Assembly (NCBI GenBank): GCA_001310555.1 | Contig: BAXO01000001.1 | Coordinates: 1 to 64,000 of the forward strand | Length of the DNA: 64,000 nucleotides | Direction of reading: 5' to 3' | Origin: Bacillus sp. JCM 19058 | GTDB taxonomy: Bacteria > Bacillota > Bacilli > Bacillales_H > Bacillaceae_D | In this document: positions 11,012 to 47,320 of the stretch, in pieces | How the letters are laid out: the number at the start of each line of letters is the position of its first letter | Position numbering within the stretch: position 1 is the stretch's first letter | Notes under the pieces: generated by a model | What the model was told of the DNA's origin: nothing | What the model saw: only the letters and a program-made list of their open reading frames with translations | Database searches by the model: none | Translations under genes and position numbers: made by a program

Positions 11012-11033
11012 AAAAGCGCAAGTTTGCGCTTTC
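11012..11033. promoter_or_regulatory. Intercistronic stem-loop between glnH and glnM
   Basis: AAAGCGCAA-GT-TTGCGCTTT lies between the binding-protein gene and the first permease gene. Such hairpins commonly protect the upstream binding-protein mRNA or attenuate read-through so the binding protein is made in excess. Two other importers in this window show the same arrangement. Confidence 0.55.
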
Positions 11034-11045
11034 TCCTAAGCCGTC

Positions 11046-17500: not shown

Positions 17501-17930
17501 TTGTGAGACGTACGCTTCGTTATTTTGTATGGCTCCTTTATCAGCAAGCCCTACATCTTGCGCATAAATAATATCAGCTTCTACATCGGTTCCGTTCAAA
17601 ATCACATCCCAAAACCAAATACCGTTCTCCCTTAAATAAAAGGTTACCGTATAAAGTACCCCGTGAATTTCACCTTTCCATCTGACGCTCGACTCTGTGT
17701 ACTCAACTACACTGTTTGAATGAACGCCCAGTAGCGGGATGGCATCAATCTCGTTTTTATTATAGAGACGTAAATACAAGTTATTCATCGATCCGTCAAT
17801 CGGGTTTGCGACCCACTGATTAATCATAATTTCTTTATATCTGGCCTCTAAAATATCTCCACTATTTAAAAACGTAAATTGATAATCTCCTGCTTTAATC
17901 TCTATTTTTTTTATTTTGCACAACTGTCAT
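14591..17930 (-). CDS. GH94 phosphorylase, 1,2-beta-oligoglucan phosphorylase-like (frameshifted)
   Basis: A large GH94 inverting phosphorylase that would cleave beta-glucosidic bonds with phosphate to give glucose 1-phosphate. Motifs: GTRDVCQGPTEYF (~628-640) of the catalytic core and YGDGDWDDTLQPAN. The repaired length of ~1111 aa fits sophorooligosaccharide phosphorylases better than cellobiose phosphorylases (~810 aa). ATG 17930 (MTVVQNKK) has GGTGGAG upstream; an A-run at 17904-17911 then shifts frame. Further breaks lie near 15767 and 15610-15616 (A7 for A6). No signal peptide: it acts on sugars brought in by the importer encoded just upstream. Confidence 0.75.
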
Positions 17931-24276: not shown

Positions 24277-26149
24277 TTAATGAAGCAGAACGTTATACTT
24301 TTCAATTAAAAATGCCGCTTGTTTCTTTGAAAGAGCTTTTCCGCTTTGGGCACGCAACTGGTTAATACCAGCCTTCAACTTGCTTTGTGCGCTTCTGGCG
24401 TTCCCTCGCTCAGCCGCTTCCATCGCTTTTTCTAATCGATTGTTTAAAGCGTTTTCGAGCCGTGGGCCCCCGGGAAGTCGGAGCCAGCTAAATACGATTT
24501 CGTTAATGCTCCGACCACTCCCCAATGAAGCTTTGCCGCAGCTTGATCAACTCCTCCTGGGTGGCGTTCGCATCATTATAAATGGAGGTTGCAGCTTGTA
24601 ATCCCTCTGTTAATACACTCCAGCCGTATCCGTCTGCTTCCAATTGGTTTCCATCATCTAATTGCTTGTTTAAAAGTGTTCGATCGGTTACAGTTGCAGC
24701 TTGTGGATAAAGTTCAATTTGCGCGATATTTCCATATGATCCCTCTGCGCCAAGAAAACGAATATAGCGGTAAGCGGTATCATTTTCTACCGTTGTAATA
24801 TTCCAACCATCTTTTACGGAGTCAAAGGAACTAAGTAGTGTCCAATTTTCACCATCGTTCGAACCGACAAACTGAGCGTCTTCTAGCCGCTCTTGGTAAA
24901 AATTCCTCGTATGGGCACGGATGCGATCAATCACCTGCTCATTTCCTTCGCCAAAGTCGACCTGGAGCCAGGTGTTGTCAGCAGTTTCATAGTCAATGAA
25001 CGACTCGGTATCGTCGTCAAATGCATGAAAGGCCAGTTCATCCGGACTTAATTCGGGATTAAGCAGAGGATTACTTTGATGCGGAGCATGAGAGCCTGTG
25101 ACCATTTCCTCCAATATCTCGAGCTTCTTCATTTGCTCTGTCACGTGAACGAGAGATTGTATTGCATCCGCGATATCATCAGCGATTTGTCTCGCATCGT
25201 AATCTCCCTCCTCTATTTCCCGTTCGATCCGATTCAGCTCCAATTGAAATTCGTAGTAGCTTCCTAACGTATAGTTTTCGGCCGGAAGCTTCCGTGCATC
25301 TGCCAGCAAACTCTCTACATCCGGAGTGCGCTCATAGACACGGACATAGTCGACAATCAACCGGTCGGGGAGATTCGCATTTGCAATGTTTCCTGCCCAT
25401 TGTCCTACTTCTGCAGAGATTTGCATAAACGCAGGCATTTGCGAGACACCGCCAGCAGACGTTCGCCACGTCTCCTCTCCATCTACGTAAAAAATGTACT
25501 CATCTTCGTTCCAATCCAGCCCGAACGTATGAAACCCTTCATAAATCCCCGGGATTTGCGGGAATTCTGCTGCGCTTCCATGATGCTCCTCATAGCCGTC
25601 CCAGTGCAGAGCATGATTGAACACATCGTCCCCTCTCGAAGCAAACGGAGTTTCAAAAATATCAATTTCCGTCCCATCTCTTCCTTCATTGCCAATATCA
25701 TGGACGCCGTCGCTCATCAGCCAAAATGCACTCCAGAATCCTTCTTCTGTCGGTAATTTCGCTCGAATCTCATAATATCCGTATGAGTGCTCGAACTTGT
25801 CTCTCGTGTTAATCGCTCCGGAATAATATTTACCGTCCCTTTCGCTAATTTGAATGATCAAGTGACCTTCGCCATCGACAAAAGCCTCATCGTCTGCCCA
25901 ATAGCCGTCTTTTCGTGGGTAGACTCCAGAGTCATCCCAATAAGGGGAATGCCCCCATTTTTCATAATCAATTTGCTCTCCTTCGAATTGATCTTCGAAT
26001 ATGAGCGTGTAACCTTCCTTTTCAGCATCGGCTCCTTCATTTGCTTGCGAAGGGCTAACCGCATAAACCGACCCTCCCCCGACCGTTAGCATACTAGCTA
26101 ACGCACCGATTGTCAGTGGCCTCCTCCAATTCCTTTGCGAAGTTGTCAT
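24277..26149 (-). CDS. Secreted GH16 glycoside hydrolase with discoidin and C-terminal FIMAH-like domain
   Basis: ATG 26149 has GGGGAGGA upstream. A signal peptide precedes a GH16 catalytic domain (YTLIFEDQFEG...DYVRVYER) with the nucleophile/acid motif EIDIFE at ~161-166. A linker with a helical segment and an F5/8 type C-like (CBM32) domain follow (TWLQVDFGEG...YRYIRFLG). The frame stops at 24503, but an overlapping frame continues to 24277 with NRLEKAMEAAERGNARSAQSKLKAGI-like sequence, resembling a FIMAH domain, so one base shift near 24515 is likely. Between two sulfatase genes, it probably depolymerises a sulfated or related polysaccharide outside the cell. Exact substrate unknown. Confidence 0.75.
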
Positions 26150-26261
26150 CGTTTTCCTCCCCATATTATTTGTTTATTTCAAAATAGGGGTATTTCCAGC
26201 TGTTTTTATTAGCCGGAAAAACCCTAATCGAAATTCCATATAACTATTGAAGTCTATGACA

Positions 26262-27724
26262 CTATTTAAATTCACTAGGATGACGGCGCTTAAGCTCCGC
26301 CACGGCATGACCGCGACCTGTTCGTTTTAAATGTTCAATATAATGCGGTAGGTTTCCTTTCGGATGGAACGGTCCTCCCTCACGCATGACCGTCCATAAT
26401 GGGTCAACGTCTGAGTTACTTGTCGCCATCATTTCATCATGCCATTCGCTGAGCAGATACACCGCTTCCTTACAAACATCTCGATGCTCAGCCACTACAT
26501 TGTACTGTTCGTATGGATCTTCCTTGACGTTAAAAAGCATTTCTTTATCGAATAAGTGATACCCGTCATGGTACGTGCGGATGTAGAACCAATCGTCAAA
26601 CCTAACGCTGCGCTGACAAACATGAGCGCATTGAGATACGACCAAGTAATCGCGCCCGGTTCCCGCCTCTCCTTTTAAGGCTGCTGCATAGCTTTGGCCG
26701 TCCCAACTGTTTTTCGGCTTTTGTTCTAGCAGCTCAGCTAACGTCGGATTAAGATCGAGATGGTAATGGAGTTCATCATTTACATGGTCGGGCCGACTAA
26801 CACCAGGCCAACGGATAATCATCGGTATTCGGCACGTGATCTGATCGGCTGTTCCGTGCTCACCATAAATGCCTAATTCCCCCATGTTCTCACCATGATC
26901 GCCGGTAATAATAATCACAAGGTCGTCCATAACTCCTTGTTCCTCTAACGTCTTAACAATTTGGCCGATATTTTCATCCATCCAGCGTACGCCGCTGTCG
27001 TAGCCGTCTACCATTTTGCGCAAGTCCGCCATATCGTTAAGCTCACCTAGAAACTTCGGGTATTCCGGTCGTGTTTGGTTATCATACATGTTCAATTCAA
27101 GTGCACCGTGCGGTCCGACATTCTTTTTATGCTCTTCGAACACTTCTTCGGTTAGCCACTCCGGAAGCGGATCGTTGGTGAACGGATTTTCAAAGCGATC
27201 CGGCGTACGGTATGGTGTATGAGGGTCCCAGAAGTTTACATACAAAAACCAGTTATCGTCTTTGGCATTCTCTTCAATCCACTTCACCACGTGAGGGGTC
27301 ACGTCCTCTGCCGATTCGTTTCCGTTTTGACCCGTATTGTAAATTTCACGAAAGCCAGCATAGAAGTTCCACGTCCCATGTCTTTGTGCAAATGGCTAAT
27401 GAGTACAGGCTTTATCCCTGCTTGATTTAAGAAGGCAGGTAAGCTCTCCCTTGCAAGTCGATCGCTAAAGCCTCGCTCCGTTCCGTCATGTCGCACGTCC
27501 CCGGCAGTACCGCCGTGCCCAACTAATCCATTATGGATTCCGAACTGGCCGGACATTAATGCCGAACGAGATGGGGCACACGGCGCATCCGAAGTGTAAT
27601 AATTCGTAAAGCGTACCCCTTCCTTGGCAATCCGATCGATGTTTGGCGAGGTGTTGCGATGATAACCGTAACAGCCTAAATGATCGGGTCGCATCGAATC
27701 CAAATCCAGTAATAAAAACTTCAT
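26262..27724 (-). CDS. Cytoplasmic-type sulfatase 2 (frameshifted)
   Basis: Paralogue of sulfatase 1 (~487 aa): [31 protein letters not shown], formylglycine motif CAPSR, IITGDHGENMGELGIYGEHG, and the shared tail EGGPFHPKGNL. ATG 27724 follows GGAGG. A missing C near 27398 breaks the frame; repair gives SPFAQRHGTWNFYAGFREIY. No signal peptide. It follows the LplC-type permease gene by ~160 nt and precedes the GH16 gene. Divergence from sulfatase 1 suggests a different sulfate position. Confidence 0.82.
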
Positions 27725-31428: not shown

Positions 31429-31605
31429 CCCGAACTCCCCCTTTAACCCTTTCGTAATCAATCCCCAACTTTGGGGGCGCTTACATCGATAGCGTTCATA
31501 CCTTATTTCAATGGCAAATGGCCCATTCAAGTAAGGCTGAGACTACTCCCCCTGTTGTTTATTTACTGTTGCATTTTAAATAATAGATGAACTCACCAGT
31601 TTAAT

Positions 31606-31636
31606 CATGTACATTACTACAATTCGATGTACAATA
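31606..31636. repeat. Direct repeat, left copy, flanking the methyltransferase
   Basis: CATGTACATTACT-A-CAATTCG-ATGTACAATA; the right copy at 32760-32790 differs at one base. Similarity extends imperfectly to ~70 bp in total. Inside the repeat TGTACAT and ATGTACA are inverted. The remainder of 31429-31925 holds no other supported gene. Confidence 0.6.
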
Positions 31637-31925
31637 TATTTAATGAATTTTATTGGGGCAGGTTAGTGACATAGAGTTGTTTAAATTTTTACAATTCTTT
31701 CTTCGTATTTTATAATGAAAGTAATCTTTCAAATGAGGTGAGTGGAGTGTCTTTTCATATTGTTCGAAGTACTTAGTTTGCGGGCTGGAAAAAAAACGCG
31801 TACCAGCTAAAAAGGGAGAAGTATGCCCTTTTTCGGAAACTAAAACTTGGAACATTATAGATTAGTCATTGATTGATAGCCGAACCACTGTTTGGCTTTT
31901 AAATTTGAAGGGTAGGTTCGAATAA

Positions 31926-32668
31926 ATGAATGAATTAGAATTTTATGATAAGGTTGGAAAAATAAACGGCTGGGACTTTAGCAAATTAAACGTTACAATT
32001 GAAGGGGTTAAGTGGGATTTTTACGAAGAAGTAACGAAAAGATGTAAAAGTTCAGATATTCTTTTGGACGTTGGCACAGGCGGAGGAGAAAATGTATTAA
32101 GAATAGCTTCTTCATTGCTTTTTCTGATTGGAATTGATTTATCAAGTGGAATGATGGAAACGGCTCAATCCAATTTTAAAAAGTCAGAAGTGTCAAACGT
32201 TCGGTTTTCTCAAATGTCTTCTGATAATTTACAATTCCCCACTGATTTTTTTTGATGTCATTTCAAGCTGCCACGCGCCGTTTGTTTCAACTGAAATAGC
32301 CAAGGTATTAAAAAACGGTGGGTTTTTTTTAAACTCAGCAAGTAAGTGAAGCTGACAAATTAAATTTAAAGACAGCTTATGAGCGGGGACAAAGTTTTGG
32401 AGAAGTCGATGGGGCTTTAAAAGAAAGATATATAATGGAACTGAAAGCAGCTGGTTTTACTGAAGTTCAATCTTTTGAATACGATGCTAATGAATACTAT
32501 AAAAGACCAGAGGATTTGATATTCTTACTTAAACATACACCAATCATTCCTGATTTTGGTCAGATAGAAAACGATTTGGTTATTTTGAGCGATTTCATTG
32601 AAAATAATCGAACCGAAAAAGGAATCCGTACAAATTCCAAAAGGTTTCTGTTAATAGCCAGCAAATAA
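31926..32668 (+). CDS. Class I SAM-dependent methyltransferase (two frameshifts)
   Basis: A small-molecule-type methyltransferase (~247 aa). Motif I is LLDVGTGGGEN, followed by LIGIDLSSGMMETAQ and, in the second frame, FDVISSCHAPFVS and VLKNGGFFLTQQV; the last part ends RTNSKRFLLIASK. Breaks are in T-runs near 32248-32255 and 32322-32330. It stands alone on the plus strand between two copies of a direct repeat, with a terminator after it, which suggests a mobile or recently gained cassette. Substrate unknown. Confidence 0.75.
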
Positions 32669-32690
32669 ATTTAAAATAGATAAATTAATT

Positions 32691-32722
32691 AAAAAGGTCC
32701 GTCTATTGACGACCTTTTTTTT
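32691..32722 (+). terminator. Intrinsic terminator of the methyltransferase gene
   Basis: AAAAAGGTC and GACCTTTTT form a 9-bp stem across an 11-nt loop, followed by more T. It begins 23 nt after the stop codon. Confidence 0.75.
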
Positions 32723-32759
32723 AGTGCGAGTGCACAGAAAATGGACTTCCTAGTTTTAA

Positions 32760-32790
32760 CATGTACATTACTGCAATTCGATGTACAATA
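32760..32790. repeat. Direct repeat, right copy, flanking the methyltransferase
   Basis: Second copy of the element at 31606-31636, with G for A in the middle. It is followed by AATGAATTTA and a purine-rich stretch, as is the left copy with small indels. Confidence 0.6.
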
Positions 32791-32799
32791 AATGAATTT

Positions 32800-33370
32800 A
32801 CGTTAAGGGGGATAGGATGTTCTCATTCAACTCTGTCAACTTTGATCACTCGATTGCGAATTGGCCACGCCGTCCGAAAGGAGAACGAAAGTCTTAATGA
32901 ACGTATGAACAATAAATTCGAGGTTAGTTCTTTTTAATTAAAGTAGCGGCAATGGCGAGGTTAGGTTATTACTCTTCCAACTAGTTATTGCAAACAAATA
33001 TTGTATTAGTCTAAAGTTTTTGTCGACAAAGTCCCATAAAACTTGACAGTCGGCAAGCCTTTTTGCATGATATGACGCATTAGCTCCACTCTCGGGGTGG
33101 GGGACACGCTTTCCGCAGGCGGGCGTGGAACTAACCGGCTACGCCAGTGGATTTCCACCTGCCCTTCTCCCTGCAGGAGTCGGTCCTCCCATCCCGTTCG
33201 CTCAAATAGTGCGGAAAAGGGCTTTGACACCTATCAAAGCCAATTCCAAGAAAAGAAAGCAGGGTAAAAAGGCCATTCCCTCCGAAACGGAAGATTATCA
33301 AAGTCTACACGACGAAGAAGTTAATCTAGCTTAAACCTGAGAGGGTTATATACTACTTATCCAATTTTCA
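32800..33370. other. Gene-free gap with a GC-rich structured segment
   Basis: No gene supported. 33085-33200 is far more GC-rich than its surroundings and contains GTGGAAC...TTTCCAC and CTGCAGGAG-type inverted pieces. It resembles a short repeat seen dispersed in some Bacillus genomes (CGCTTTCCGC-GGCGGGCG), from memory only. A lysine-rich open frame at 33125-33334 has no ribosome site and is probably fortuitous. Confidence 0.4.
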
Positions 33371-33407
33371 AAAATGGCTTTGAGGAATTGTACCTCAAAG
33401 CCATTTT
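33371..33407. terminator. Bidirectional terminator after the metallophosphoesterase gene
   Basis: AAAATGGCTTTGAGG and CCTCAAAGCCATTTT form a perfect 15-bp stem with a 7-nt loop; A and T runs at the ends let it act in both directions. It lies ~105 nt beyond the last gene of the phosphonate-type operon. Confidence 0.78.
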
Positions 33408-33511
33408 GTCTGCGATCTGAGCCTTATAAGAGCGCACGCTTTCCTCGTGACACCCGGTCATTGCTCGTAACTCTTTGCCCATTTTATTTAATTGATTCTA
33501 AATTTAATGCG

Positions 33512-34447
33512 TCATGTGCGTCTAAATGACAAATCATACCCGGTTGCCGATTCAAATCGTTCTCTCAACGGGTTAAACACTTTTAATGTTATGCTCCCGT
33601 CTGCCGTATCATAGGAGACGATCCGAAAACGTCCACATCCCCCAAATGCCTCAGCCTGCCAGTTTTGAAAACATTGAATGACCTTGTTTCCATGCATGCC
33701 TCGGTCAACGCGATGACTTACATTGACGGGGGTATGGTGACCGGAAAATACAGCAACCAAATTGGGATAATGCTTCAAATGCTTTTGCCACATATCTTCG
33801 CCGTCGTTGCATCCTGCCACAGCCGAATACTTCTCTTTCGGATTGGCATCGTCCCCCTGTTTGACTCGTTCGCCGTACATATACATGTAGCTGTGCGTGA
33901 TGAGAAATACTTGGTGATCAGGATGTTGAAGATTAACTTCATCAGCCCATGCCATGACTTCATCTCGCGGTGCAAATTCAAGAATTAGGAACAAAAACGG
34001 CGTTCCTCCCCATTCAAACCGTGCATACATGTTCTCCGCCTTGCCTACTTCGTACACACCGCCGAACCACGGCTTACCGCGAAACCGATGCACGCCAAAA
34101 TACCGGTTGAACATAGACAACTCCCTCACTTTGTCTGGATGAACCAGTCCGCGTTTAGAAGTAATTGGGTCGTCGTAATCATGATTACCTGCTGCAATCA
34201 GCAGTGGTAACCCTGCCTCTTCAATAAGCTTCAACGCTTGGCGGGCTTTCCGATATTCCGCTTCATGCTTTGCCCCTTGATCGACGACATCTCCGACATG
34301 AATCACTGCTTTTACTCCCATCTCTTCTGCGTGATTCGTAATCCAATGTGCCATCACCTTCAAGACATCTTGATGGTTTTTGGCAAGTATTTGTGTATCT
34401 GGAATAACAATAAAGGAAATATTTTGTGATACAGAATGGTCGATCAT
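33512..34447 (-). CDS. Calcineurin-like metallophosphoesterase
   Basis: Intact 311-aa cytoplasmic enzyme (no signal peptide). The binuclear-metal motifs are in order: DTQ (17-19), GDVVDQG (52-58), GNHD (87-90), a THS mid-protein and GHHTPVN near residue 240. Such enzymes cleave phosphate mono- or diesters; the substrate is not evident. ATG 34447 overlaps the ATPase stop by 4 nt (ATGA), so it is translationally coupled to the importer. I infer it hydrolyses an imported phospho- or phosphonoester. Confidence 0.87.
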   Translation of the reverse strand: MIDHSVSQNISFIVIPDTQILAKNHQDVLKVMAHWITNHAEEMGVKAVIHVGDVVDQGAKHEAEYRKARQALKLIEEAGLPLLIAAGNHDYDDPITSKRGLVHPDKVRELSMFNRYFGVHRFRGKPWFGGVYEVGKAENMYARFEWGGTPFLFLILEFAPRDEVMAWADEVNLQHPDHQVFLITHSYMYMYGERVKQGDDANPKEKYSAVAGCNDGEDMWQKHLKHYPNLVAVFSGHHTPVNVSHRVDRGMHGNKVIQCFQNWQAEAFGGCGRFRIVSYDTADGSITLKVFNPLRERFESATGYDLSFRRT

Positions 34448-35433
34448 GTCACATTAGTCTCCTCTTTTGCAAATATACAAGCAGCTTGATGACCCGGTGC
34501 GATGGTCATCAATGGCGGTACATCTACTTCGCATGCATTGACAGCAAACGGGCATCTCGTTCTGAAAACACAGCCGGAAGGTGGATTGATAGGGCTCGGA
34601 ATATCTCCTTTTATCGGATTTATATCCCTAATATTATCAGGGTCAGGTTCCGGAATGGCATTTAACAACGCTTTCGTATAAGGATGCGCAGGAGATTGGA
34701 ACACTTGCTCAACCGTACCGACCTCCATCAGCTTGCCAAAATACATGACCGCTACTCTGTCTGAGAAATACTGAACCACTGACAAATCGTGCGAAATCAT
34801 CAGAATGGTCAAACCGAGCTGCTGCCTTAAGTCGGACAACACATTCAATATTTGGGCCTGAACGGACACATCAAGTGCGGAAACCGCCTCATCGGCTACT
34901 AGAAACTTAGGCTTAACGGCAAGCGCCCTGGCGATGGAACCCGCTGTCGCTGGCCTCCAGACAGTTGATGAGGAAAACGATCAAGGACACCCCTGGGCAA
35001 CTGAACGTGTTCCAGTACCTCGCGAACAACTTTATTGCGCTCCTGACGTGAACCGATCCGGTTGACATAAAGCGGCTCACCAATGATATCCTTTAGCCGC
35101 ATCCTTGGATTCAAAGAACTGTTGGGATCCTGAAACACCATTTGCATTTGTCTGCGTAGCGGGCGCATTTCCTTCGGTTTTTTATACGTGATGTCCTGTT
35201 GTTCAAAAAAATATCTGTCCGTCAGAAGGATTGTTTAGCCGAAGCAGCGACCTGCCAAACGTACTCTTCCCCGATCCCGATTCTCCGACAAGCCCAAGTA
35301 CTTCCTGGTGGCGGATCTCTAGGGAAACATCGTCTACGGCCCGTACAAGCGAAGCCTTTCCAGGCCCCATACGAAAGTGTATTTTCAGGTTCCTAGCGCC
35401 TGCAAGGACGTTTCGCTCCGTCTCATTCTTCAT
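34444..35433 (-). CDS. Dipeptide/oligopeptide-type ABC ATPase, DppF/OppF-like (multiple frameshifts)
   Basis: ATPase with Walker [11 protein letters not shown], then [19 protein letters not shown], signature [10 protein letters not shown], and the C-terminal [11 protein letters not shown]ys motif of this family. Breaks near 35203-35210 (A-run) and about 34940 (QRV-AIARAL reading out of frame as PSPGRLP); repair joins all parts to ~329 aa. ATG 35433 follows GGAGGTG and overlaps the upstream ATPase end by 11 nt. Confidence 0.8.
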
Positions 35434-36436
35434 GTTTCACCTCCTCCAAAAAGCAGCGGACCGTATGTCCGTTGTCTCCTTTCCATTCGGGCGGTACCGA
35501 CGATCGACATATCGTCATGGCACTTGGACACCTAGTATGAAACGCACATCCCCCGATGCGCTCGGTTGGACTCGGAACCGCACCTGGAATAGAGGCAAGC
35601 CTGTATCCATCCCGGGCGCGACGACCTTTTTGTGGCAGCGAATCCAACAGCATTTTAGTATACGGATGCTTAGGTGAGCGAAACAATGGACCTACAGGCG
35701 CACTCTCAACAATAACGCCCCGATACATCACCGCCACACGATCGGCAAACTGTGCGACAATGCCCAGATTATGCGTAATAAACAGGAGCGATTTATCATC
35801 GTTTTCCTTGATTTTCTTCAGCAAATACAGGATCTGATTTTGGATGGTGACGTCCAATGCCGTCGTAGGTTCGTCAGCGATAAGCAGCCTCGGATCACAA
35901 CATATGCTCATAGCGATCATCACCCTCTGCTTTTGCCCACCTGATAGCTCGAATGGATAGGCTCTTAATCTTTTTCTTGGCTCCGGTATACCCACCTTCT
36001 CAAATAGTGTTTCCGTTTCGACTCGCGCCTCCTTTTTAGACAATTGTCGGTGTCTGACAAACATCTCGGCAACCTGCTCACCGACTGTCAATAGGGGATT
36101 CAAGGCGCTCATCGGTTCCTGAAAGATCATCGCCAGCATCTTCCCTCTCAGATCGTTGTATTTCTCCTCACTCAGTCCAACCAGTTCCTGGGGACTGCCC
36201 GCTCCCGTGTTCAATAAAATACTGCCTTTTACAAAAGCATTCGGCGTGTCAGGACCTGCCCCCAACAGTCCCATGATGGAAAGAGCTGTCATCGATTTTC
36301 CACACCCCGATTCTCCTACAATAGCCAGTGTCTCTCCTTTTTGCACTTGTAGATTGATCCCATTGACCACATGCACTTTGTCTTCCTGTTTCTGAAACCC
36401 GATATACAAATCTTGAATCGTTAACAACGGTTGCAT
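35423..36436 (-). CDS. Dipeptide/oligopeptide-type ABC ATPase, DppD/OppD-like
   Basis: Intact ATPase (~337 aa): Walker [30 protein letters not shown], signature [10 protein letters not shown], Walker [13 protein letters not shown], and the C-terminal [13 protein letters not shown] domain that often holds an iron-sulfur cluster in this family. ATG 36436 ([10 protein letters not shown]) is preferred over TTG 36445 given the GGGGG site. The importer need not carry peptides; this family also takes up nickel, opines and other small polar molecules. Confidence 0.88.
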
Positions 36437-36452
36437 TGGACCCAATCCCCCG

Positions 36453-37294
36453 CTAATGTTTTGAAATTTCCATCACTTTGCTAAGCCAGTCCCCGATAGT
36501 CTGAATGATCAAAGCCTTGGCTAAGATAACCAATGACGGGATGATGGAAATCCACCATTGATTAATCAAATAATTCCTTCCTTCCCCAACCATTTTGCCT
36601 AGGCTGGACGTCGGCGGTTGAATCCCGATGCCAAGAAACGACAAGGAAGACTCCAACGTCAGAATAGCCGGAAAGTATAAGGTCAACATGACTAGTATCG
36701 TCGGTACAGTATTTGGAAAAATGTGTCTTGTGATCACATACCAGCTTGAAGCACCCGACGCCAGTGCCGCTTCTACATATTGTTTTTCCCGCAGGGAAAG
36801 CACGAGACCTCGGGTGATCCTGGCATAATTTTCCCAATAGGCCAAACCGAGTAACACGATAAACACAGGGATGTCCGTTCCGAACAGGACGAGGCCCATC
36901 AATAGCATCAACGTGTAGGGAACCGCAAACTGAAAATCGACCACGGACATGATGACCTTATCGGCAATCCCCCCATGTAGCCGCTGATCAATCCGGCAAG
37001 CACGCCCACAACACATCCAACCAATATCCCTAGAGATGAAATGGTCAGACTGATTTTCGTTCCGTACATGACCCGGCTCAACAAATCTCGACCCAACTGA
37101 TCTGTCCCTAGCGGATGATGCCAGCTGCCGTTTAAAAAAACCGGCGGCTGATTGACGTTCGTCAGCTCCGTAGTATTGGGCGGATAGGGCATAATCCAGT
37201 CGGCAAATATCGCCACGAAGACAAACAGGAAGAGATAGCCTAGACACATTTTGATATGCCACGGGGCTCCGACCAATTTTTCGATGAAATTCAT
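36453..37294 (-). CDS. Dipeptide-type ABC permease, DppC-like (frameshifted)
   Basis: Permease with about six spans. ATG 37294 overlaps the DppB stop (ATGA). N-terminal frame: NFIEKLVGAPWHIKMCLGY, PLGTDQLGRDLLSRVMYG. A run of six G near 36970-36975 should be seven, giving GYMGGIADKVIMSVVDFQFAVP and continuing to the EAA loop EAALASGASSWYVITRHIFPN. Repaired length ~281 aa. Confidence 0.82.
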
Positions 37295-38222
37295 AGGCCT
37301 CCCCCTTTGCGAATTCTCGGATCAATCACCCCATACAGAAGATCCACGCATAAATTGATGATAATGACGACGGCCGAGAAACTGACGACACCGAATTGAA
37401 TCAAGGGAAAGTCCTTGTTCATGACGGATTCAATCAAACGCCTACCCACGCCGGGCCAGGAAAAAACCACCTCGATAAAAAGGGCGCCGCTGACGATGTC
37501 CATCATCAGCATGCCGATCACCGTCACTAGTGGGATTAAGGTATTTTTGAAGGCATGCTTCAAGATGATCAACCTTTGTCCAAGTCCTTTTGCTCTAGCC
37601 GTCCGGATGTAATCCTGAGCCAACACTTCCTGAAAGCTGTTGTAAACGAAACGGACAATCGACGCAATGGGGCGAACCGAAATGGCAATGATCGGCATGA
37701 TATAGCTAGCGGGAGAACCATCCCCATGCTCGGCAACCATTTCATGTGATAGCTGAAAATTAGGATGAGCATAATCGCAATAATAAAACCCGGGATGGAG
37801 TAGCCGATGCAGACGAGAAACATCAATCCCTTGGAAAACCGGCTGTTCGGCTTCAGAGTGGACAATATCCCAATAGTGATACCTGCTACAATACTGAGCA
37901 CAAAGGCGAAAACACCTAGCTTCAACGTTTCGACGGCAGCTTCCGCATAGATTTCAGTGACGAGTCGGTTTTCCAGTATGCTGAAGCCAAAATCGCCCTG
38001 GAGAACGTTATGCAAGTAGGCCATCAATTGAGTGTGCACCGGCTCATCGAGTCCATACATTTCTAAGTACATTTGATGTTCCTCAACCGTCAAACCTTCC
38101 GGAAACATGACGTTGATCGGGTCGCCCGTGAGGCGTGCGCCTATAAATACAAATAACAATACGGCGAAAATCGTCAGGAACGCTTTGATCGTTCTTTGAA
38201 AAACAAACTTGTACAATTCCAT
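37291..38222 (-). CDS. Dipeptide-type ABC permease, DppB-like (frameshifted)
   Basis: First permease. ATG 38222 follows GGAAG. Typical content: FLTIFAVLLFVFIGARLTGDP, VVFSWPGVGRRLIESVMNKDFPLIQ. The EAA-type loop (YIRTARAKGLGQRLIILKHAFKN) is in the second frame. The break is near 37710-37730, where KWLPSMG joins HGDGSPASYIMPIIAIS. Repaired length ~311 aa. Confidence 0.82.
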
Positions 38223-38276
38223 CACTGCTTCCCGGTAAGTTGATGTCGTTCAAACGAAAGTTCCGATTGCGACGCA

Positions 38277-39886
38277 TTAATCAAAGCTGATTTCGCCGGC
38301 TCTCAAGGCGATGGTGTAGGCACGGTAATTCTTCGGCACCGAATAGTTGATGTGATCTCTAACTGCAATGTATTCGTGCGGTACATACAGATGGCTGAAA
38401 CCCGCTTCTTCCTTGGCGATTTTGTTCAAATTCCTTATTGCCTCTTTGCGCTCCTCGACGTCCGTTGAGAATCGGGCCGTCTCAAAATGGGTAAACCAAT
38501 CCGGGCTTTGCGGCTGCCATATATCCCTTGTACTAACCCAAATCTCCTCGCCCCATGAGCCATCGATCAATGCCATCGGATCCGGGTAATAAAGAGGGTT
38601 AGACCAGGTGCGCACCATCATTTCGGGATCGGGCGTATCGTTCACATCCGGAACATTGCGCAATTCCGCATTGACCCCGATGTTAGCCACATTTCGACAA
38701 TGGCCTGCAGAGCTAAATCCATGTTTACATAATATTCCGCACGGTTTAATATTTCGATCGTTGTCCCGTCGTATCCTGATTCTTCAACCAATTCTCGAGC
38801 TCTCGGGATCGTATTCAACCGTTTGAACATCCGACAGATACATGTCGCCGTAATCTGGAAACTGAAAAGATGTCGGGACCTTGCCTTTTCCGCCCCAAAT
38901 AGCCTGGTTCAATCCTTCTCGATCGATAGCCATGTCCAGCCCCTGACGCAATTTCTGGTGACTGCCCATGAATTCGTTGCCCATGTTGTAGACCAGCGTA
39001 TGGTAGATCGGATACGCAGTGTCAATTAGTTCAACACCCCGGCTGCTATCCAGACTCGCTTCCTGATCGGTCGGGATACCGACGGCGATATCGATTTCTT
39101 CATTGGCGATGGCAGTCACTCTGGAGGCTATTTCAGGCATATAAGTAAAGGTAATCTGTTGAACAGGTGCAGGATCTCCCAGTGATCATCGAACCTTTCC
39201 AGCACGGCCCTCTCCCCTGGTGTGAAATCAACTACTTTGTACGGACCTGTACCAACCGGCATATGATTCGCCTCATCTTCACCCACTTCTTCAATGTAAG
39301 CCTTGGATGTGATCGCACCACTGAGATCAGAAAGGAAAATTTCAACTAACGGATCGGGTCGCTTCAAATGTATACGAACGGTGTAACTGTCGACGATTTC
39401 GACTTCTTCAAAATTGTTGAAATATCGGCCGTACGCATTGTTGAATCTAGGATCTTCAGCTTCAAAAATACGGTTCAGTGAGAAGGCCACATCCTCAGCT
39501 TCCATGATGTTCCCGTTATGAAACCTGACTCCTTCACGCAATTGAAACTCCCAAACGGTCGATTCGACGTTTTCCCAGCTTTCGGCAAGCCCGGGAATGA
39601 ACGACAATTCTTCCGAAAACGGATCACGCATAATCAACGTGTCATAGATGCTGTATTGCCACTGTGCATCCGCATTTGAAGTTCTTGTCGCTTCAAGTCC
39701 CTCGGTAAAGGCGTTGGTACCGATCCGCAGATGCTCCACTACTTCTGATTCTTTCGTATCAGCTGATTCCTCATCGTTCTTATCCGGCGCATTCCTTTCG
39801 GTTGCTTCCTGCGTACACGCTGCAAGCAAAATGACAAATACACTAACGAAAAACATGAACTCTATTGTTTTTTTGATTATTCCCAT
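38277..39886 (-). CDS. Family 5 (Dpp/Opp-type) substrate-binding lipoprotein (multiple frameshifts)
   Basis: Extracellular lipoprotein (~536 aa): lipobox LLAAC, then FIPGLAESWENVESTVWEFQLREGVRFHNG and VGTGPYKVVDFTPGE, all family 5 hallmarks. The C-terminal half reads TWSNPLYYPDP and PHEYIAVRDHINY. Breaks near 39180 (a missing G, restoring HWEDPAPVQQITF), 38810 and 38690. ATG 39886 follows GGGGGAG. Placed between a PLD-like gene and permeases; the ligand may be a phosphonate or phosphate ester and not a peptide. Confidence 0.82.
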
Positions 39887-39928
39887 TTTGTTGACTCCCC
39901 CTTCCTCAAAACCATTTCGCTTTTATGA

Positions 39929-41332
39929 TCAATTTTGGTATTCATAGTTATAAATATCTTTGTACACATCGTACACTGGATGATCCAACGTATATTCTTT
40001 GATGACCACACTTGCATTCGCTTTTGAAGCGTATTCGTCAAGCTTTAAGTTTGTCGACCCGGTTATGGTGTAATACTCCCTGATGCCACTGAAAGCAAAC
40101 AGAAAATCTTTAGCGTGTGTGGCTGTAGGATATCTGATAATTCCGATATTATTGAATGTATCGGTGGGAAACACGTGGTCATAGGAGTTTGTACGAACCA
40201 CCCACCGGAAATGCTTCAGTCCAGGATCGGAAGAATGGTAAATATCGTACATCTCATTATAGAGCTTTTGACCGAAATTATCGGTCTTCATATGGTAGAC
40301 ATTAGCCTTAAAATAACGGTTGCCAGGAACTTCAGCCATTTTGTCCACGTATTTTGCGATCGGGTTAAACTCCGTATCCCACGCGTTTCCGTTCATCGGA
40401 TCTCTATCGCCCGTTTCAGGAATATACGTGTAGTTCTTCGGGCTCGACCGGAATAGGCGTAAAATAGCTGCTGAAATGCTGATCGTCATAGTTGAGAGTG
40501 CCATTGGCATGCTCTTGTCGAACAGCTTCATGAAAGGCCGTTTGATCATCGGCATGGTCGTATATCAAGTCAAAATATTTGTCAAAGGAAGCCTTCAATT
40601 CCGGATGGAAATTGATTAATATGCCAGATTGCACCCAGTCTTTGCCTGCGGGAACGCCATGTTCATTGTGATCATCCACATTTGAAGTGCCCACATATAC
40701 CGTATCTGCGTATAGGGAGCCCGTATCCCCCGCATAATGGCTGACCGTCATAAACTTAGCGTGCATTTGTTGAAAGGCATCGTCACCCCAGCTTACCTTT
40801 TTCATCCTGAGATAGTCTTCAACTTTTTTTTGAGGGATCCGTGACAGTAGGTTCGTTCATGAAGCTGTCAATATAACCGTAAATGTCCTGGCTGCTCGTA
40901 TTTTCCTTATGGTAGACAAAGTCGACATAAACCTCATTTAAGGCTGCCTTCACAATTAAATCCACTAAATTTTCCGTATGACTTCCCCCAAAATTATGCC
41001 CTCTCACATACGCGTAGGTTGTGGAGTCATTCGGGTTGATACCGATAAAAGCCTGGTCACCGATTTTGTAGATGGCAAATTTGATGTGGACATCCGTTTC
41101 TGGATGATCGCTTTTGTATTGAATCGCTCTTTGAATCAAATCACCGTACTTAAAAATCGCATGATTTTTTGAATCTCCCACATCACGGTCATATATCTTC
41201 ACCCTGACGTTTTTATCATCGTATTGAAACTGGAACGACGGGGAAACGCTCGCATAAACCAAATTAGTCGATCCCATGTTTAACAATCCAATACACAATA
41301 ACGCCAACACGACATGCTTGACTTTTTTTCAT
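39929..41332 (-). CDS. Secreted phospholipase D-like protein with variant HKD motifs (frameshifted)
   Basis: PLD-superfamily protein (~468 aa) that would cleave phosphodiesters or related esters outside the cell. ATG 41332 follows GGGAGAG; six A instead of seven restore the signal peptide MKKVKHVVLALLCIGLL with cleavage near VYA-SV. Two half-sites are seen: QMHAKFMTVS...VGTSNVD and THAKDFLFAF...ITGSTNL. Each has HxK and the downstream GT/GSxN, but Ser or Ala stands where HKD enzymes have Asp. Other breaks near 40813 and 40440-40460. It sits between the importer and the alcohol dehydrogenase gene in one operon. Confidence 0.75.
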
Positions 41333-41513
41333 GATTCTCTCCCACCCTTTTGTTACGCATTTCGTTCGTCATGGTTTTCCAGTGTGATTCAGATGCACTT
41401 CCTGCAAATTTTTTTTCGATTAAATCGAGATGTTCCGTGTTCCTGGCTAATCTTAATTGAGATCGAAGCATTCTTGTAAAGCAATAGACTAGTCCCATTC
41501 GATTAACGCTAGA

Positions 41514-42656
41514 TCAAAGTAAGGCCCTTAACATGTTTTCAATCTGTGACGGCGAAAGCTTAACCGGATTGTTGTCCATTCTCCCATGTGTGCTGGCTTG
41601 ATAAGCGATCTCCTGTATATGAGACGGAGTAATCCCAAAAGCTTGCAGTCGATCCGGGATGCCATAATCTTGATAGATTCTCTTCATGACCTGAGCTACC
41701 TCTTCCGCGCATTCGACTCCGAAAGCGGCAAACAATTGTTCAGAATCTAAAAGTGATCTTTGATTGATTTTCAACACGGAGCTTAACGTGAAGCTGGCTG
41801 CTATTCCATGGGTGATGCCATGTCCTAACGTCAAAGGATAGGAAATGGCGTGACAGGCGGTTGTCTCCGTATTACTGAAAGCCAATCCTGCATACAAGCT
41901 GGCCAGTGACAACTGTCGCCGGAATTCTCGGTTGCTTGGCTCTTCCTTCAACCGAGGGAGAACCGTGCAAATGAATCGGATCGCCTGTAAGGCGTACATT
42001 CGGGTGAGCGGGTTCGTTTTTACCGACCAATACGCTTCCGTCGCATGGCACAGCGCATCCAGGGCGGTGCTGACACTCAAACGCGTCGGCATCGTATAGG
42101 TCAATTCTGGTAAAATAACGGCCGCGTCCGCATACAGGCGTGGGTCGGACAGAGAATATTTCTCCCCTTTTTCTTGATCCCATACCGTAGCCCAGCACGT
42201 CACTTCCGAACCTGTGCCAGATGTCGTAGGGATGCCGATCCACGGCGTTATTTGTCGCTCGCGGCGATAATCGGCTTCCATAATGGCTGCCCTTACATCT
42301 GCCACAGTTTCCATGAACATTGATCCCAAGGCGGCCAGTGCTTTGGCCATGTCCATGACACTTCCTCCTCCAACGGCAACAATCAACTCGTAATCAACAT
42401 TATGCAGCTCTTTTTTTTGAGCCGCAAAACGTCCATCAGATCAGGATTGGAAAGCTGAACCTCTTTCACTATGATGTTTTTTTTCTTGAAATAATTTCAT
42501 GAGAGGGCTCAAGTCATCGCTTCTTTCTACCTGCTCGCCTCGAGTCAGGACCAAGATACGCCTCACTTGCCTGTATGCTTCCTCCATAGAAAAGTCAAAT
42601 TGCTCCACGCCTTCTTTTCCGACAAATATTCTAACTGGATTATAAAACACACTCAT
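41514..42656 (-). CDS. Iron-containing alcohol dehydrogenase, PhpC/phosphonoacetaldehyde reductase-like (frameshifted)
   Basis: Group III metal-dependent dehydrogenase (~380 aa). NAD site VGGGSVMDMAKA; PTTSGTGSEVTCWATVWD with EKYSLSDPRLYADAA resembles the branch that interconverts phosphonoacetaldehyde and 2-hydroxyethylphosphonate. Metal ligands: the Asp/His in ALDALCHATEAYWS, the His in TTACHAISYP and in ITHGIA. Breaks in T-runs near 42409-42420 and 42475-42484 separate the first 60 residues. GAGAGGATGG precedes ATG 42656. It lies 12 nt after phnX, so the pair probably works as alcohol to aldehyde to acetaldehyde plus phosphate. Confidence 0.78.
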
Positions 42657-42668
42657 GCAACCATCCTC

Positions 42669-43457
42669 TCACACTCTGCTCTGTATCAAGTCAATCGCTT
42701 CTGGAAGCTGAGCGATAGAGGAAAGCACAAAATCCGCTCCCGCCTCTTCAAACCTTTTGCGAACTTCATCCATGCGCCCCTGAAGCTCGGTTGCATCGAG
42801 GCCATCAACTTCCTGCTTCGTCAACCCCAATTCGCTACTTCCTTTGATCACTGCTATGCTCCACACGCCCGCATTCTTGCCTTCCCGCACATCGGCCACG
42901 GTGTCCCCGACCTTGACCGCCGCCTGAGGCGGATAGACTTCAAGCTCGGTTAGGTTGCGAAAAATCATATCCGGAGCGGGGCGTCCGACCTTCACTTCAT
43001 CCGCACTAACCACAAAGTCGGGCTCATACCCTTTGGATTTGGCTTTCGGATGCACAACTCGCATCATTTTCCGCGTGTATCCTGTCGTAGAACCGACCTT
43101 GAGGCCGTTCTCTCTCAATAGTCCGACGGTATCAACCACACCCGGCAAGGGATCGGTGTAATGGGGCAAAGCATCCATCAGGTGCAGTTCGAATCGTTCG
43201 TACAGGCGCTCCACATCGTGCACTTTCGGTTCTGTAGAAAATTGGGTGACCCATACCTGTTTAACACGATCCATGTCAAGAATGGCCTGAATATGGTCGC
43301 GCTTCAGCAATCCCATCGGTCCACGTGCTTCTTTCACCGTGATGGATATGCCAGATTCTTCGAACGTTTGGATAAATGCATGCATCGGCGCGAAACATCC
43401 ATAATCGACCACCGTTCCTGCCCAATCAAAGATGACAGCTCGTACGCGGTTTATCAT
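42669..43457 (-). CDS. phnX: Phosphonoacetaldehyde hydrolase
   Basis: Intact 262-aa HAD-family phosphonatase that splits the C-P bond of phosphonoacetaldehyde to acetaldehyde and phosphate. Nucleophile D11 and partner in FDWAGT (10-15), followed by the phosphonatase-specific DYGCFAP. The Schiff-base Lys is K52 in GPMGLLKRDH (K53 in Bacillus cereus). STTGYT, VSADEVKVGRPAPDMI and VGDTVADV complete the HAD motifs. AGGAGGGGG precedes ATG 43457. First gene of the operon. The usual partner, the transaminase PhnW, is absent. Confidence 0.93.
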   Translation of the reverse strand: MINRVRAVIFDWAGTVVDYGCFAPMHAFIQTFEESGISITVKEARGPMGLLKRDHIQAILDMDRVKQVWVTQFSTEPKVHDVERLYERFELHLMDALPHYTDPLPGVVDTVGLLRENGLKVGSTTGYTRKMMRVVHPKAKSKGYEPDFVVSADEVKVGRPAPDMIFRNLTELEVYPPQAAVKVGDTVADVREGKNAGVWSIAVIKGSSELGLTKQEVDGLDATELQGRMDEVRKRFEEAGADFVLSSIAQLPEAIDLIQSRV

Positions 43458-43533
43458 ACTCGTCCCCCTCCTGAAGTATACTTGTTCCTTTCAACTACAA
43501 TTTTAAAGCAGACTTGCGTCTTAATCCAATAAA

Positions 43534-43547
43534 TTTTGCATTAATTT
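43534..43547. promoter_or_regulatory. Candidate DeoR operator upstream of phnX
   Basis: TTTTGCATTAATTT, about 77 nt before the phnX start. TTTGCATTA-A-TTT recurs as TTTGCATTA-T-TTT upstream of deoR (44447-44459), 12 of 13 bases alike. Sharing between the regulator gene and the adjacent operon suggests an operator. Confidence 0.5.
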
Positions 43548-43605
43548 ACATAAACTTAATATTTTTTTTGCTGTTTTTTTTGCTTCTTTGATGTTCTTTC
43601 CCCAT

Positions 43606-43634
43606 AAAAAAAAGCAACATATCGGTTGCTTCTC
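43606..43634 (-). terminator. Intrinsic terminator of deoR
   Basis: Minus strand: AGCAAC-CGATAT-GTTGCT followed by TTTTTTT, starting ~17 nt after the deoR stop. It separates deoR from the phnX operon, which therefore needs its own promoter. Confidence 0.75.
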
Positions 43635-43648
43635 CAAAAGGTAAATGG

Positions 43649-44413
43649 CTAATGATTGATGATGGTCACTTTATGGTTTTCATATGCTTCAAGCAATTGT
43701 TCATCTATCTGGCTATCCGTCACAATGGCATGAATCTGGTCTAAACCGCAAATGTTCAGATACGACATCGTTTCAAATTTGCTTGAATCCGCGACGACCA
43801 CCGCCTTTTCGGCGCTGCGGATCATGGCATTGATGACTTCGGATTCCCCCTGCCGAAAATCTGTCAAGCCCTTCTCTAATGATATGGCATTTATGCTGAT
43901 AAAGGCCGTATCAATATTAAATTTAGCAATCTGCTCTTCAATGGAAAGGCCGTACAACGAGAACTCCTCATGATTCAACGTGCCACCGGGGACAATCACT
44001 GTAAATCCGGGCTTGTGTGTGAAGAGGTCCGCCACTTTCAAAGAATTGGTGATGACTGTCAGACGCTCAAATTGGGTCGTCAAGTATTTGGCCAACTCGA
44101 TATTTGTCGTCCCTGCATTTAAGGAAATCGCCTGATGTTCCTTGACGAGACGGACAGCAAAGCTCGACAGCTCGCGCTTACGTTCAATGAATTTCATTTT
44201 TCGTTTTATAAATGCCTGGTTTGTCGCCACATCACGCTCAGATACAGCCCCTCCGTGTACCTTCTGCAGCTTGTTGAGACTTTCCAAATATTGCAAATCC
44301 CTGCGAACCGTATCGATCGAAACGTTCAATAATGATTTGAGTTCCGCCACGGTTACATGATCTTTAACTTCCAACTCCTTGAGAATTAGCTTGTATCGCT
44401 CGGCAGCAATCAT
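43649..44413 (-). CDS. DeoR-family transcriptional regulator
   Basis: Intact 254-aa repressor: N-terminal helix-turn-helix (VTVAELKSLLNVSIDTVRRDLQYLESLNKLQKVHGGA) and a C-terminal sensor domain (SLNAGTTNIELAKYL, DTAFISINAIS, VVVADSSKF). DeoR proteins usually sense phosphorylated intermediates. It lies upstream of the phnX operon on the same strand and shares a motif with its leader. Effector could be a phosphonate or phosphoester intermediate; this is inference. Confidence 0.9.
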   Translation of the reverse strand: MIAAERYKLILKELEVKDHVTVAELKSLLNVSIDTVRRDLQYLESLNKLQKVHGGAVSERDVATNQAFIKRKMKFIERKRELSSFAVRLVKEHQAISLNAGTTNIELAKYLTTQFERLTVITNSLKVADLFTHKPGFTVIVPGGTLNHEEFSLYGLSIEEQIAKFNIDTAFISINAISLEKGLTDFRQGESEVINAMIRSAEKAVVVADSSKFETMSYLNICGLDQIHAIVTDSQIDEQLLEAYENHKVTIINH

Positions 44414-45138: not shown

Positions 45139-47320
45139 TTAAGCATCCTGAGATTGCTTTTCCTTTAACACTTGGCGGTATCGATGCAAAATAGGTTCAG
45201 TGTAACCATTTGGTTGTTTACAACCTAAGAATATTAAGTCGCAAGCCGCACGGAAGGCGACGGAATTCTCTAAATCCTTTGATAATGCAATGTAGCCTGA
45301 ATCCATTGCGTTTTGTTCATCTACCACTTTAGCCATTCTTTTTAAAGATGACACCACTTCTTCTTTTGTACAAATTCCATGTCGAATCCAATTAGCCAGA
45401 TGTTGGCTAGAAATCCTCAATGTGGCTCGATCTTCCATCAAACTTTCATGATTAATGTCTGGAACCTTAGAACAACCGATTCCTTGATTGATCCATCGAA
45501 CAACATATCCTAGAATGCCTTGCACATTGTTATCTAACTCTCGCCTAACCTCTTCCCTACTCCAATTTGGGGCACTTACTATCGGAATTTCTAACATATC
45601 ATCCCTTAAGTTTATTTTCTGTTTACCCATTTCCTTTTGCACCTTTATTACATCAATTTGGTGGTAATGAAGGGCATGCAAAGTAGCAGCAGTAGGAGAG
45701 GGCACCCAAGCTGTATTAGCCCCTGCTCTCAATTGACTACCCTTTTCCTTTAGCATGTCTTCCATCAAGTCTGGTTTTGCCCACATACCTTTACCAATTT
45801 GAGCTCGTCCTTGGAATCCTGCTATAAGTCCTGTATTAACATTCGATCGTTCATAGCTTTGTAACCATAACGCAGACTTCATGTCCTCCTTACGAATCAT
45901 TGGACCCGCTTCCATAGATGTATGAATTTCATCCCCTGTCCTATCCAAGAAACCAGTATTTATAAACACAATTCGGTCCTTCACTTCACGGATACACGCC
46001 TTCAAATTTAAGGAAGTTCTGCGTTCTTCATCCATAACCCCAATTTTCAACGTATGTCTTTTAAGCTCTAGCATATCCTCTACTCTATTAAACAGCTTGT
46101 TTGCAAACGCTACTTCCTTAGAACCATGCATTTTTGGTTTTACTATATAAATCGAACCTTTTTTTTGAATTTTGATACGTACCATTACCTAATAAATCAT
46201 GTTTAGCAATCAGGCTCGTAATAACACAATCCAAAATACCCTCAGGTATTTCGTTTCCTTTACTGTCTAATACAGCAGGATTTGTCATTAGATGACCGAC
46301 ATTACGAATAAGCATGAGCACGCGCCCTGGCAAGATCGTCCCTTCACCTATGCTCGATTTGTAGATCCGATCAGAATTCACCTTTCTCTCTATCACTTTA
46401 TTGCCTTTTGTAAAGGTCGCTGAAAGAGTTCCTTTTATTAACCCTAACCAATTTCGGTAGACCATTACTTTATCATCTGCATCTATGGCAGCAACTGAGT
46501 CTTCACAATCCATAATAGTTGTTAGAGCTGACTCCATTAGAATATCTTTTACACCAGCCGGATCAATTGTCCCAATTGGGTGATCTCGATCAATCTGAAC
46601 CTCAATATGCAAATTATTATTTTTAAGTAATATGGCTGATGGTTCTCCCGCTAATCCTTGGTATCCTATAAACTTAGAAAGTTCCTTTAGCTCTGTCTTT
46701 TCTCCATTATTTAAGGTAACTACTAGTTGCCCCCCTTCTATTGAATACATATTAGCTTTCTGGTGAGATTTTGTTTTTAATGGCGCCACCTGATCAAGAA
46801 ATTCCTTTCCGTACTGAATAACTCTCTCTCCTCGAATAGGATTATATTTTACTTGGTGCTCAGCTCCATCTCTCTCACTGATCGCATCACTACCATAGAG
46901 AGCATCGTATAAGCTACCCCATCTTGCATTTGCAGCATTGATTGCATAGCGAGCATTGTTAACTGGCACTACCAATTGCGGCCCCGCTTGTAACGTTATT
47001 TCATTATCAACGTTTTCGGTTGTAATTTGGTACTCATCTACCTTTTCCTCTAAGTAACCAATCTCATGCAAAAATGCTTGATACTTATCGAAGACAATAT
47101 CTTGATTATTTTCCTTTAGCCATTGATCAATTTTTTTCTGGAGCTCATCTCGTTCCGATAATAATACGTGATTTTCATGTACTAAGTCTCGGACGATATC
47201 GTTTAAATCGCTCCAAAATTTTTCTCTATTTAGCTGACTGCCGGGAAGAACCTCTTGATTAATAAATTCGTATAATACTGGTGCCACTTGAATACTGTCT
47301 ACTTTTATATATTCCATCAT
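45139..47320 (-). CDS. glcB: Malate synthase G (frameshifted)
   Basis: Condenses glyoxylate and acetyl-CoA to malate in the cytosol. The repaired length of ~727 aa is that of the G isoform. Motifs include [38 protein letters not shown] and [14 protein letters not shown], then [17 protein letters not shown] and [29 protein letters not shown] precedes ATG 47320. One break: an extra T in the run near 46157-46163 at [17 protein letters not shown]. No isocitrate lyase is nearby, so glyoxylate may come from glycolate or elsewhere. Confidence 0.88.

Follow-up and report, generated by a model that had tools for sequence, protein, structure and literature searches.

The question raised by the operon analyzed here is from where its phosphonoacetaldehyde hydrolase (PhnX) obtains phosphonoacetaldehyde, when no PhnW of the classic 2-aminoethylphosphonate (AEP) route is encoded near it. 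The operon lies in a 64-kb stretch of Bacillus sp. JCM 19058 (positions 1 to 64,000 of contig BAXO01000001.1, which is listed at 121,063 bases, assembly GCA_001310555.1; hereafter the window) and consists of ten genes, all on the minus strand from 44413 to 33512, for a DeoR-type regulator, PhnX, an iron-containing alcohol dehydrogenase (ADH), a secreted phospholipase D (PLD)-like protein, a binding protein, two permeases, two ATPases, and a metallophosphoesterase (MPE). The best reading is an operon for breakdown of 2-hydroxyethylphosphonate (HEP), as a variant of the hydrolytic phosphonate pathway. The two central steps by themselves, oxidation of HEP to phosphonoacetaldehyde by ADH and subsequent cleavage by PhnX, are considered quite probable from the sequence comparisons, and the wider proposal that the operon would scavenge phosphorus from HEP, at least part of which enters the cell as a monoester, is slightly favored. 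The genes, their order, and their common strand were found as a sequence-only reading of this DNA had given them, as follows.

43649..44413, minus strand: DeoR-family regulator, intact (PF00455, 155.5 bits; HTH_DeoR)
42669..43457, minus strand: phnX, phosphonoacetaldehyde hydrolase, intact (TIGR01422, 353.3 bits)
~41514..42656, minus strand: iron-containing alcohol dehydrogenase, ADH (PF00465/PF25137), proposed HEP dehydrogenase
~39929..41322, minus strand: secreted PLD-like protein, in three pieces by frameshifts, with two HxK motifs
~38280..39886, minus strand: family-5 binding protein (SBP_bac_5; PF00496, 126.3 bits), frameshifted
37291..38222, minus strand: Opp/Dpp-type permease B, frameshifted
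36453..37294, minus strand: Opp/Dpp-type permease C, frameshifted, in ATGA overlap with permease B
35423..36436, minus strand: OppD-type ATPase (ATPase D), intact (PF00005, PF08352)
34444..35433, minus strand: OppF-type ATPase (ATPase F), frameshifted (PF08352 on the C-terminal piece)
33512..34447, minus strand: cytoplasmic metallophosphoesterase, MPE, intact (PF00149), in ATGA overlap with ATPase F, proposed to release HEP from an ester

Association of the dehydrogenase gene with phnX

Window PhnX scored 353.3 bits against TIGR01422 (cut-off, 220) over model positions 1-251, which bears out its assignment as phnX. Enzymes of this family convert phosphonoacetaldehyde to acetaldehyde and phosphate. 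PhnW, PhnD, and the proteins of relatives were compared against the whole 64 kb, and two PhnW queries gave no match there, as had been noticed earlier; PhnW in or near the cluster, by which the classic PhnWX pathway is recognized, was thus not observed within the window.

Relatives of ADH were collected by scanning genome contigs with a 20-sequence alignment; 329 relatives were obtained and the best 80 loci were kept. phnX was located within 10 kb of the ADH gene in 76 of the 80, and the two genes are accordingly conserved as neighbors. Such loci were found in Bacilli, Clostridia, Synergistaceae, Fibrobacter, Lentisphaeraceae, and others, and many related loci also had a deoR relative near phnX-ADH. 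PhnD was encoded within 10 kb in 64 loci, PhnCDE being the usual importer, which argues for a setting of uptake and not of synthesis. The four loci without phnX nearby were L027, L028, L030, and L064: L030 carried PepM and Ppd, L064 a piece of PepM with Ppd, and L028 Ppd, and the contig of L027, which has neighbors in common with L030 and pairs with it on the ADH tree, ends right after ADH. A clear case with phnX is the genome of L012 (Evansella halocellulosilytica), assembled as one 5.5-Mb scaffold, in which the order deoR-phnX-ADH-PhnD-PhnC-PhnE-PhnE-MPE was found (phnX and ADH at 9199-11140, MPE at 14712-15635) and no PhnW exceeded the cut-off.

An operon unique to the window was considered and rejected, phnX-ADH without phnW being widespread. 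The earlier claim of a distinct, PhnW-less, ester-importing gene set was narrowed by the same comparison: sets of phnX and ADH without PhnW are common and usually have PhnCDE, but the combination with an Opp-type importer, MPE, and secreted PLD-like protein is rarer, and the window is this rarer variant.

Among the other loci, L008 (10017-12971) and L023 (near 14016) had, after phnX-ADH-PhnCDE, a deoR relative and a match to metallophosphoesterases; in L008 this match lies within a large protein that has LamG, cohesin, and dockerin domains. phnX-ADH occurred with importer genes of sugar type, as assigned by sequence clustering, in L006 (556-14701), L010 (8263-15617), and L032 (8182-17530); L006 and L010 carry a different metallophosphoesterase, and L032 has a PHP-domain protein, phnW, and a binding protein that is nearest to UgpB, under the cut-off.

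The complement of phosphonate genes was then compared in 34 genomes carrying ADH, of 35 selected from the 80 loci. PhnW was over the cut-off in 17 genomes and not in the other 17, and PepM was present in one and absent from 33; where PepM is lacking, phosphonoacetaldehyde must derive from an imported compound. In 12 of the 17 PhnW-bearing genomes PhnW lay 100 bases or less from a PhnX, and in all 12 ADH stood beside a different PhnX copy. Since ADH adjoins another PhnX than PhnW does, the phnX on the ADH side appears to have a job of its own and is mostly not the partner of PhnW. phnW was found within 10 kb of ADH in 15 of the 80 loci. One genome (G031) is a weak example, because the phnX that tblastn had shown in its locus L070 was not matched by TIGR01422 at E 1e-40.

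Family and phylogeny of the dehydrogenase

The best NCBIfam model for window ADH was TIGR03405 (PsrA / Phn_Fe-ADH equivalog), against which the in-frame piece scored 253.5 bits, under the cut-off of 423.7. The protein is 62% identical to a Paenibacillus protein named phosphonoacetaldehyde reductase, a name that many relatives bear at NCBI. D199, H203, H268, and H282 (P0006 numbering), which we take to be the metal-binding Asp and three His of iron-containing ADHs, were invariant in the 20-row alignment including the window.

In a tree of an 85-row clade with 15 paralogues as outgroup on long branches, for which support is given by the SH-like approximate likelihood-ratio test (SH-aLRT) only, the phosphonate-linked clade was separated from the paralogues with a value of 99 and window ADH was inside it, apart from plain iron-containing ADHs. 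The two outcomes that would have spoken against the sequence-only reading, a grouping with plain alcohol dehydrogenases and a lack of conservation beside phnX, were thus not observed. The clade holds PepM/Ppd-linked (biosynthetic) and phnX-linked members, characterized PhpC and FomC not being among the rows. A phnX-linked subclade of 81 rows, five of which are metagenome proteins whose phnX neighbor was not read, also had an SH-aLRT value of 99, and within it window ADH was grouped with the Paenibacillus/Evansella part (SH-aLRT, 97).

It might be argued that ADH instead acts on the product of PhnX, as an acetaldehyde reductase or in aldehyde detoxification, and that phosphonoacetaldehyde is supplied by PhnW or another feeder elsewhere. 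Such a role would suit a family that includes many other alcohol dehydrogenases among its structural relatives, the 17 of 34 genomes that have PhnW, and Bacillaceae-type loci in which phnW, phnX, and ADH are held together. It is nevertheless judged unlikely: half of the genomes have no PhnW over the cut-off and 33 have no PepM (Pbf-type feeders were not searched for), the phnW-phnX pair is apart from an ADH with its own phnX in 12 genomes, and the grouping of ADH with PepM/Ppd-linked enzymes leads one to expect phosphonoacetaldehyde as the substrate.

Opp-type importer and its relatives

PhnD gave no match in the window. By gene content the importer is of the Opp/Dpp type, with an SBP_bac_5 binding protein, two permeases, and two oligo_HPY ATPases; it had been called complete, which holds for the genes but not for the open frames, four of the five being out of frame. 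The binding protein was 53% identical over 185 residues to that of L026 (Lachnospiraceae), which is phnX-linked and beside ADH. Its counterpart in L029 (Synergistaceae), also next to ADH and not far from phnX, was 45% identical over 197 residues. An Opp importer accompanied by phnX was thus found on three separate ADH branches (the window, L026, and L029).

Relatives of the binding protein were rare. They were present in 1 of 299 genomes in the family of L026 (E 1e-90; up to 4 best candidates scored per genome) and in 5 of 180 genomes in the order of L029 (up to 8 best candidates). The three close relatives among these five all had phnX on the contig: L029 and L132 had the order ADH-OppABC-ATPases-CehA/McbA-phnX, and L133, whose contig begins inside the binding protein, had Opp genes and phnX. 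The two distant relatives, L134 and L135 (36-37% identity), had OppBC, a HAD-IIA phosphatase-domain protein, OppA, and two ATPases, and no phnX or ADH match was obtained on the 13-14 kb read. The L134 protein combines its HAD-IIA domain with a Metallophos domain (33.5 bits); for the L135 protein Pfam finds the HAD part only, the phosphoesterase part being a 26% tblastn match. These two regions (L134, 603-8008; L135, 4466-11810) are candidate phosphoester uptake operons in their own right.

Phosphoesterases of differing folds recurred in the phosphonate operons, namely MPE in L012, CehA/McbA in L029 and L132, and another MPE in L010, and this importer family accompanies predicted phosphoesterases inside and outside phosphonate operons. 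The import of an ester, proposed in the sequence-only reading, is suggested by this gene association and by the tie of the same importer relatives to phnX, the substrate being predicted from the association.

Metallophosphoesterase and PLD-like protein

Window MPE is a member of the calcineurin-like phosphoesterases (PF00149, 38.9 bits; cut-off, 21.5), and the motifs D17, G52-D53, G87-N88-H89-D90, H185, and G236-H237 were invariant in 33 rows. It was 51% identical to the MPE that ends the phnX-ADH operon of L012; in the family of L012, MPE was present in 1 of 35 genomes, and that one is beside phnX. The MPE model was close to purple acid phosphatase, Lmo2642, and the glycerophosphodiesterase GpdQ.

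The pieces of the PLD-like protein stayed under the Pfam cut-off, the middle one scoring 15.4 against PLDc_2 (cut-off, 27) and the other two giving nothing. In relatives, which reach 67% identity, two HxK motifs were recognized (H188/K190 and H404/K406, all four residues being invariant across 30 sequences). A structure model of the relative P0190 (predicted local distance difference test score, 92.9) had a phospholipase D as its first Foldseek match (7e0m, E 2.7e-13), and by these motifs and this fold the designation PLD-like is sound.

For co-occurrence, the best 120 of 4482 ADH matches, 40 of 68 MPE matches, and 25 of 76 PLD matches were compared, and contigs of equal length were taken as the same contig. 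Among these matches, relatives of all three proteins were together on 3 contigs, ADH and MPE on 2 more, ADH and PLD on 1, and MPE and PLD on 1; the locus tags of PLD P0194 and ADH P0016 are BK133_28015 and BK133_28010.

Another possibility is that ordinary glycerophosphodiesters or other phosphate esters are what the PLD-like protein, the Opp importer, and MPE handle, and that these three have only control by phosphorus starvation in common with phnX-ADH, which would then act on free HEP brought in by another importer. The distant importer relatives, which adjoin a phosphatase-type protein and for which the stretch read showed no phosphonate genes, and the MPE relatives without phnX nearby would fit this. 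The single gene order with ATGA overlaps, the lack of a PhnD match in the window, the tie of close importer relatives to phnX in Lachnospiraceae and Synergistales, and the repeated occurrence of PLD, ADH, and MPE on equal-length contigs do not, and little probability is given to it.

Proposed route and points that weigh on it

In the HEP route that we prefer, the secreted PLD-like enzyme would release a phosphonate ester outside the cell by cutting a polymer or lipid, which is the weakest step, and a small HEP ester, perhaps glyceryl-HEP, would be taken up by the Opp-type importer, as its gene association suggests. Cytoplasmic MPE would release HEP from the ester, and ADH with NAD(P)+ would convert HEP to phosphonoacetaldehyde, a step predicted from genome content. 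PhnX, whose family membership was tested, would then hydrolyze phosphonoacetaldehyde to acetaldehyde and phosphate and so pull the oxidation forward. The DeoR-type protein would regulate the gene set, and PhnW would be unnecessary. The whole scheme, in which polymer- or lipid-bound HEP is trimmed by PLD, imported through Opp, freed by a GpdQ-like MPE, and degraded by ADH and PhnX with neither ethylene nor PhnW, and in which one and the same importer was recruited to phnX-ADH operons on at least three occasions, alongside different phosphoesterases (MPE in the window, CehA/McbA in Synergistales), is put forward tentatively.

Several observations weigh against this proposal or parts of it. Three full-length ADH relatives also fell short of TIGR03405, at 264, 304, and 242 bits against 423.7. 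PhnW was present in all 11 Paenibacillus genomes examined, the nearest named relatives, mostly as a separate phnW-phnX pair, and likewise may be encoded elsewhere in the organism of the window. HEP oxidation by ADH would be the simplest source of phosphonoacetaldehyde, PbfA- or PbfB-D-like feeders not having been searched for in the PhnW-less genomes. In one family, 8 of 104 genomes had an MPE relative (47-52% identity), and the stretches read there showed neither phnX nor ADH; the idea of MPE as a marker for phnX-ADH at large was rejected. Only two of the 34 ADH genomes had an MPE that reached E 1e-90, and in one of them, P. oceani, it was on another contig. A phosphoesterase was near ADH in 17 of the 80 loci, a count that has no background rate and includes seven query sources. 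It was present in 3 of 6 loci with only Opp or CUT1 importers, and as all three are query sources and some loci are cut by contig ends, a rule that a non-PhnD importer always brings a phosphoesterase was not shown. PLD relatives occur also in Pedobacter and others, and a search of 392 genomes from the order to which L001 belongs, which had no positive control, gave none at E 1e-100. Finally, 6 of the 10 operon genes (ADH, PLD-like, binding protein, permeases B and C, and ATPase F) are in two or more frames.

The direction from HEP to phosphonoacetaldehyde, part of the earlier claim, gains support from genomes in which phnX and ADH occur with neither PhnW nor PepM, and it remains a prediction from genome content. 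The reverse, a phpC-like salvage in which ADH reduces phosphonoacetaldehyde to HEP, would agree with the NCBI name of many relatives and with a proposal, in the part of PMC9381506 consulted, that phpC in AEP operons together with phnW may turn AEP into HEP. This direction is improbable, as genomes without PhnW and PepM offer no source of phosphonoacetaldehyde known to us, and the nearness of ADH to PhnX and importers points to breakdown.

Reading frames and neighboring regions

Only deoR, phnX, and the genes for ATPase D and MPE are intact in the window. The N-terminus of ADH is out of frame and its frame is intact from about residue 90. Malate synthase G, the neighbor of the operon, is split into overlapping frames as well (45139-46185 and 46118-47320), and assembly error fits better than decay because this gene next door is likewise broken; the frameshifts in the operon are probably sequence errors. 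A decaying operon with real mutations, which the 6 of 10 genes out of frame might suggest, is very improbable in view of this unrelated broken neighbor and of the pieces of ADH, PLD-like protein, binding protein, and permeases that still align to relatives at 37-77%.

Of the several ATGA overlaps reported earlier, those of permeases B/C and of ATPase F/MPE are exact, but ATPases D and F overlap by 11 bases. Predicted promoters and terminators were about as numerous as the mean for shuffled sequence.

Frameshifts seem numerous across the window. In the stretch of about 2 kb just below the operon (31500-33500, plus strand), a broken methyltransferase-like frame and, at two places, alike short peptides that suggest a repeat were seen. 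Farther away, two sulfatases, a glycoside hydrolase family 16 (GH16) protein with an F5/8 domain, and a split glycoside phosphorylase with SOGP domains (22518-23510, 24503-26164, 26262-27302, and 14591-17923), with transporter-like genes nearby, look like a region for polysaccharide use.

Significance and comparison with known systems

HEP and its polysaccharide esters belong to the natural phosphonate pools, as judged from the sections consulted of PMC9381506, in which HEP is present in marine organic matter, and of PMC5649143, in which HEP esters on polysaccharides are broken down to ethylene by carbon-phosphorus (C-P) lyase. If the proposed route is true, a hydrolytic breakdown of HEP is spread over several phyla and a share of HEP is recycled with no release of gas, many of the phnX-adjacent genes that bear the name phosphonoacetaldehyde reductase encode HEP dehydrogenases, and surveys requiring phnW miss this route. 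The variants of importer and phosphoesterase point to uptake of phosphonate esters, and the route would bear on bacterial recycling of phosphorus from natural phosphonates. In the literature searched (subscription papers and preprints were outside its scope), no ADH-PhnX route for HEP and no catabolic HEP dehydrogenase was found, save for a negative test of PbfF.

Ugp/GpdQ systems take up and hydrolyze glycerophosphodiesters. As in these systems, a small phosphoester would be imported and then split by a phosphodiesterase in the cytoplasm, and the MPE model of the window resembles GpdQ; unlike them, the window has an Opp-family importer, and its proposed product is a phosphonate. PhpC/FomC-type reductases act on the same pair of metabolites, and window ADH falls in a clade with PepM/Ppd-linked enzymes; it differs in standing with PhnX and importers and in the proposed oxidation.

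PbfA, PbfB-D, and PbfF are likewise extra enzymes that funnel other phosphonates to phosphonoacetaldehyde and PhnX, according to PMC12366243 and PMC10590968, but they belong to other enzyme families with other substrates, and their clusters were found primarily by phnW with phnX or phnYA. PbfF was tested there as a HEP dehydrogenase with PhnX, and no phosphate was released (PMC12366243). Further context is given by cytidine monophosphate (CMP)-activated HEP and feeder enzymes, in PMC10590968 and PMC6697681.

The breakdown of HEP by C-P lyase, as described in the text consulted of PMC5649143, concerns the same phosphonate, which must there too be freed from an ester, a release postulated for alkaline-phosphatase-like enzymes; that route yields ethylene, whereas acetaldehyde and phosphate would be expected from the route of the window. 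With the PhnW-PhnX route for AEP, finally, the operon shares cleavage by PhnX to acetaldehyde and phosphate and an arrangement with importer and regulator. It differs in that no PhnW was matched in the window and that ADH is proposed to make phosphonoacetaldehyde from HEP, and in 12 of the 34 genomes both gene sets are present at separate places.

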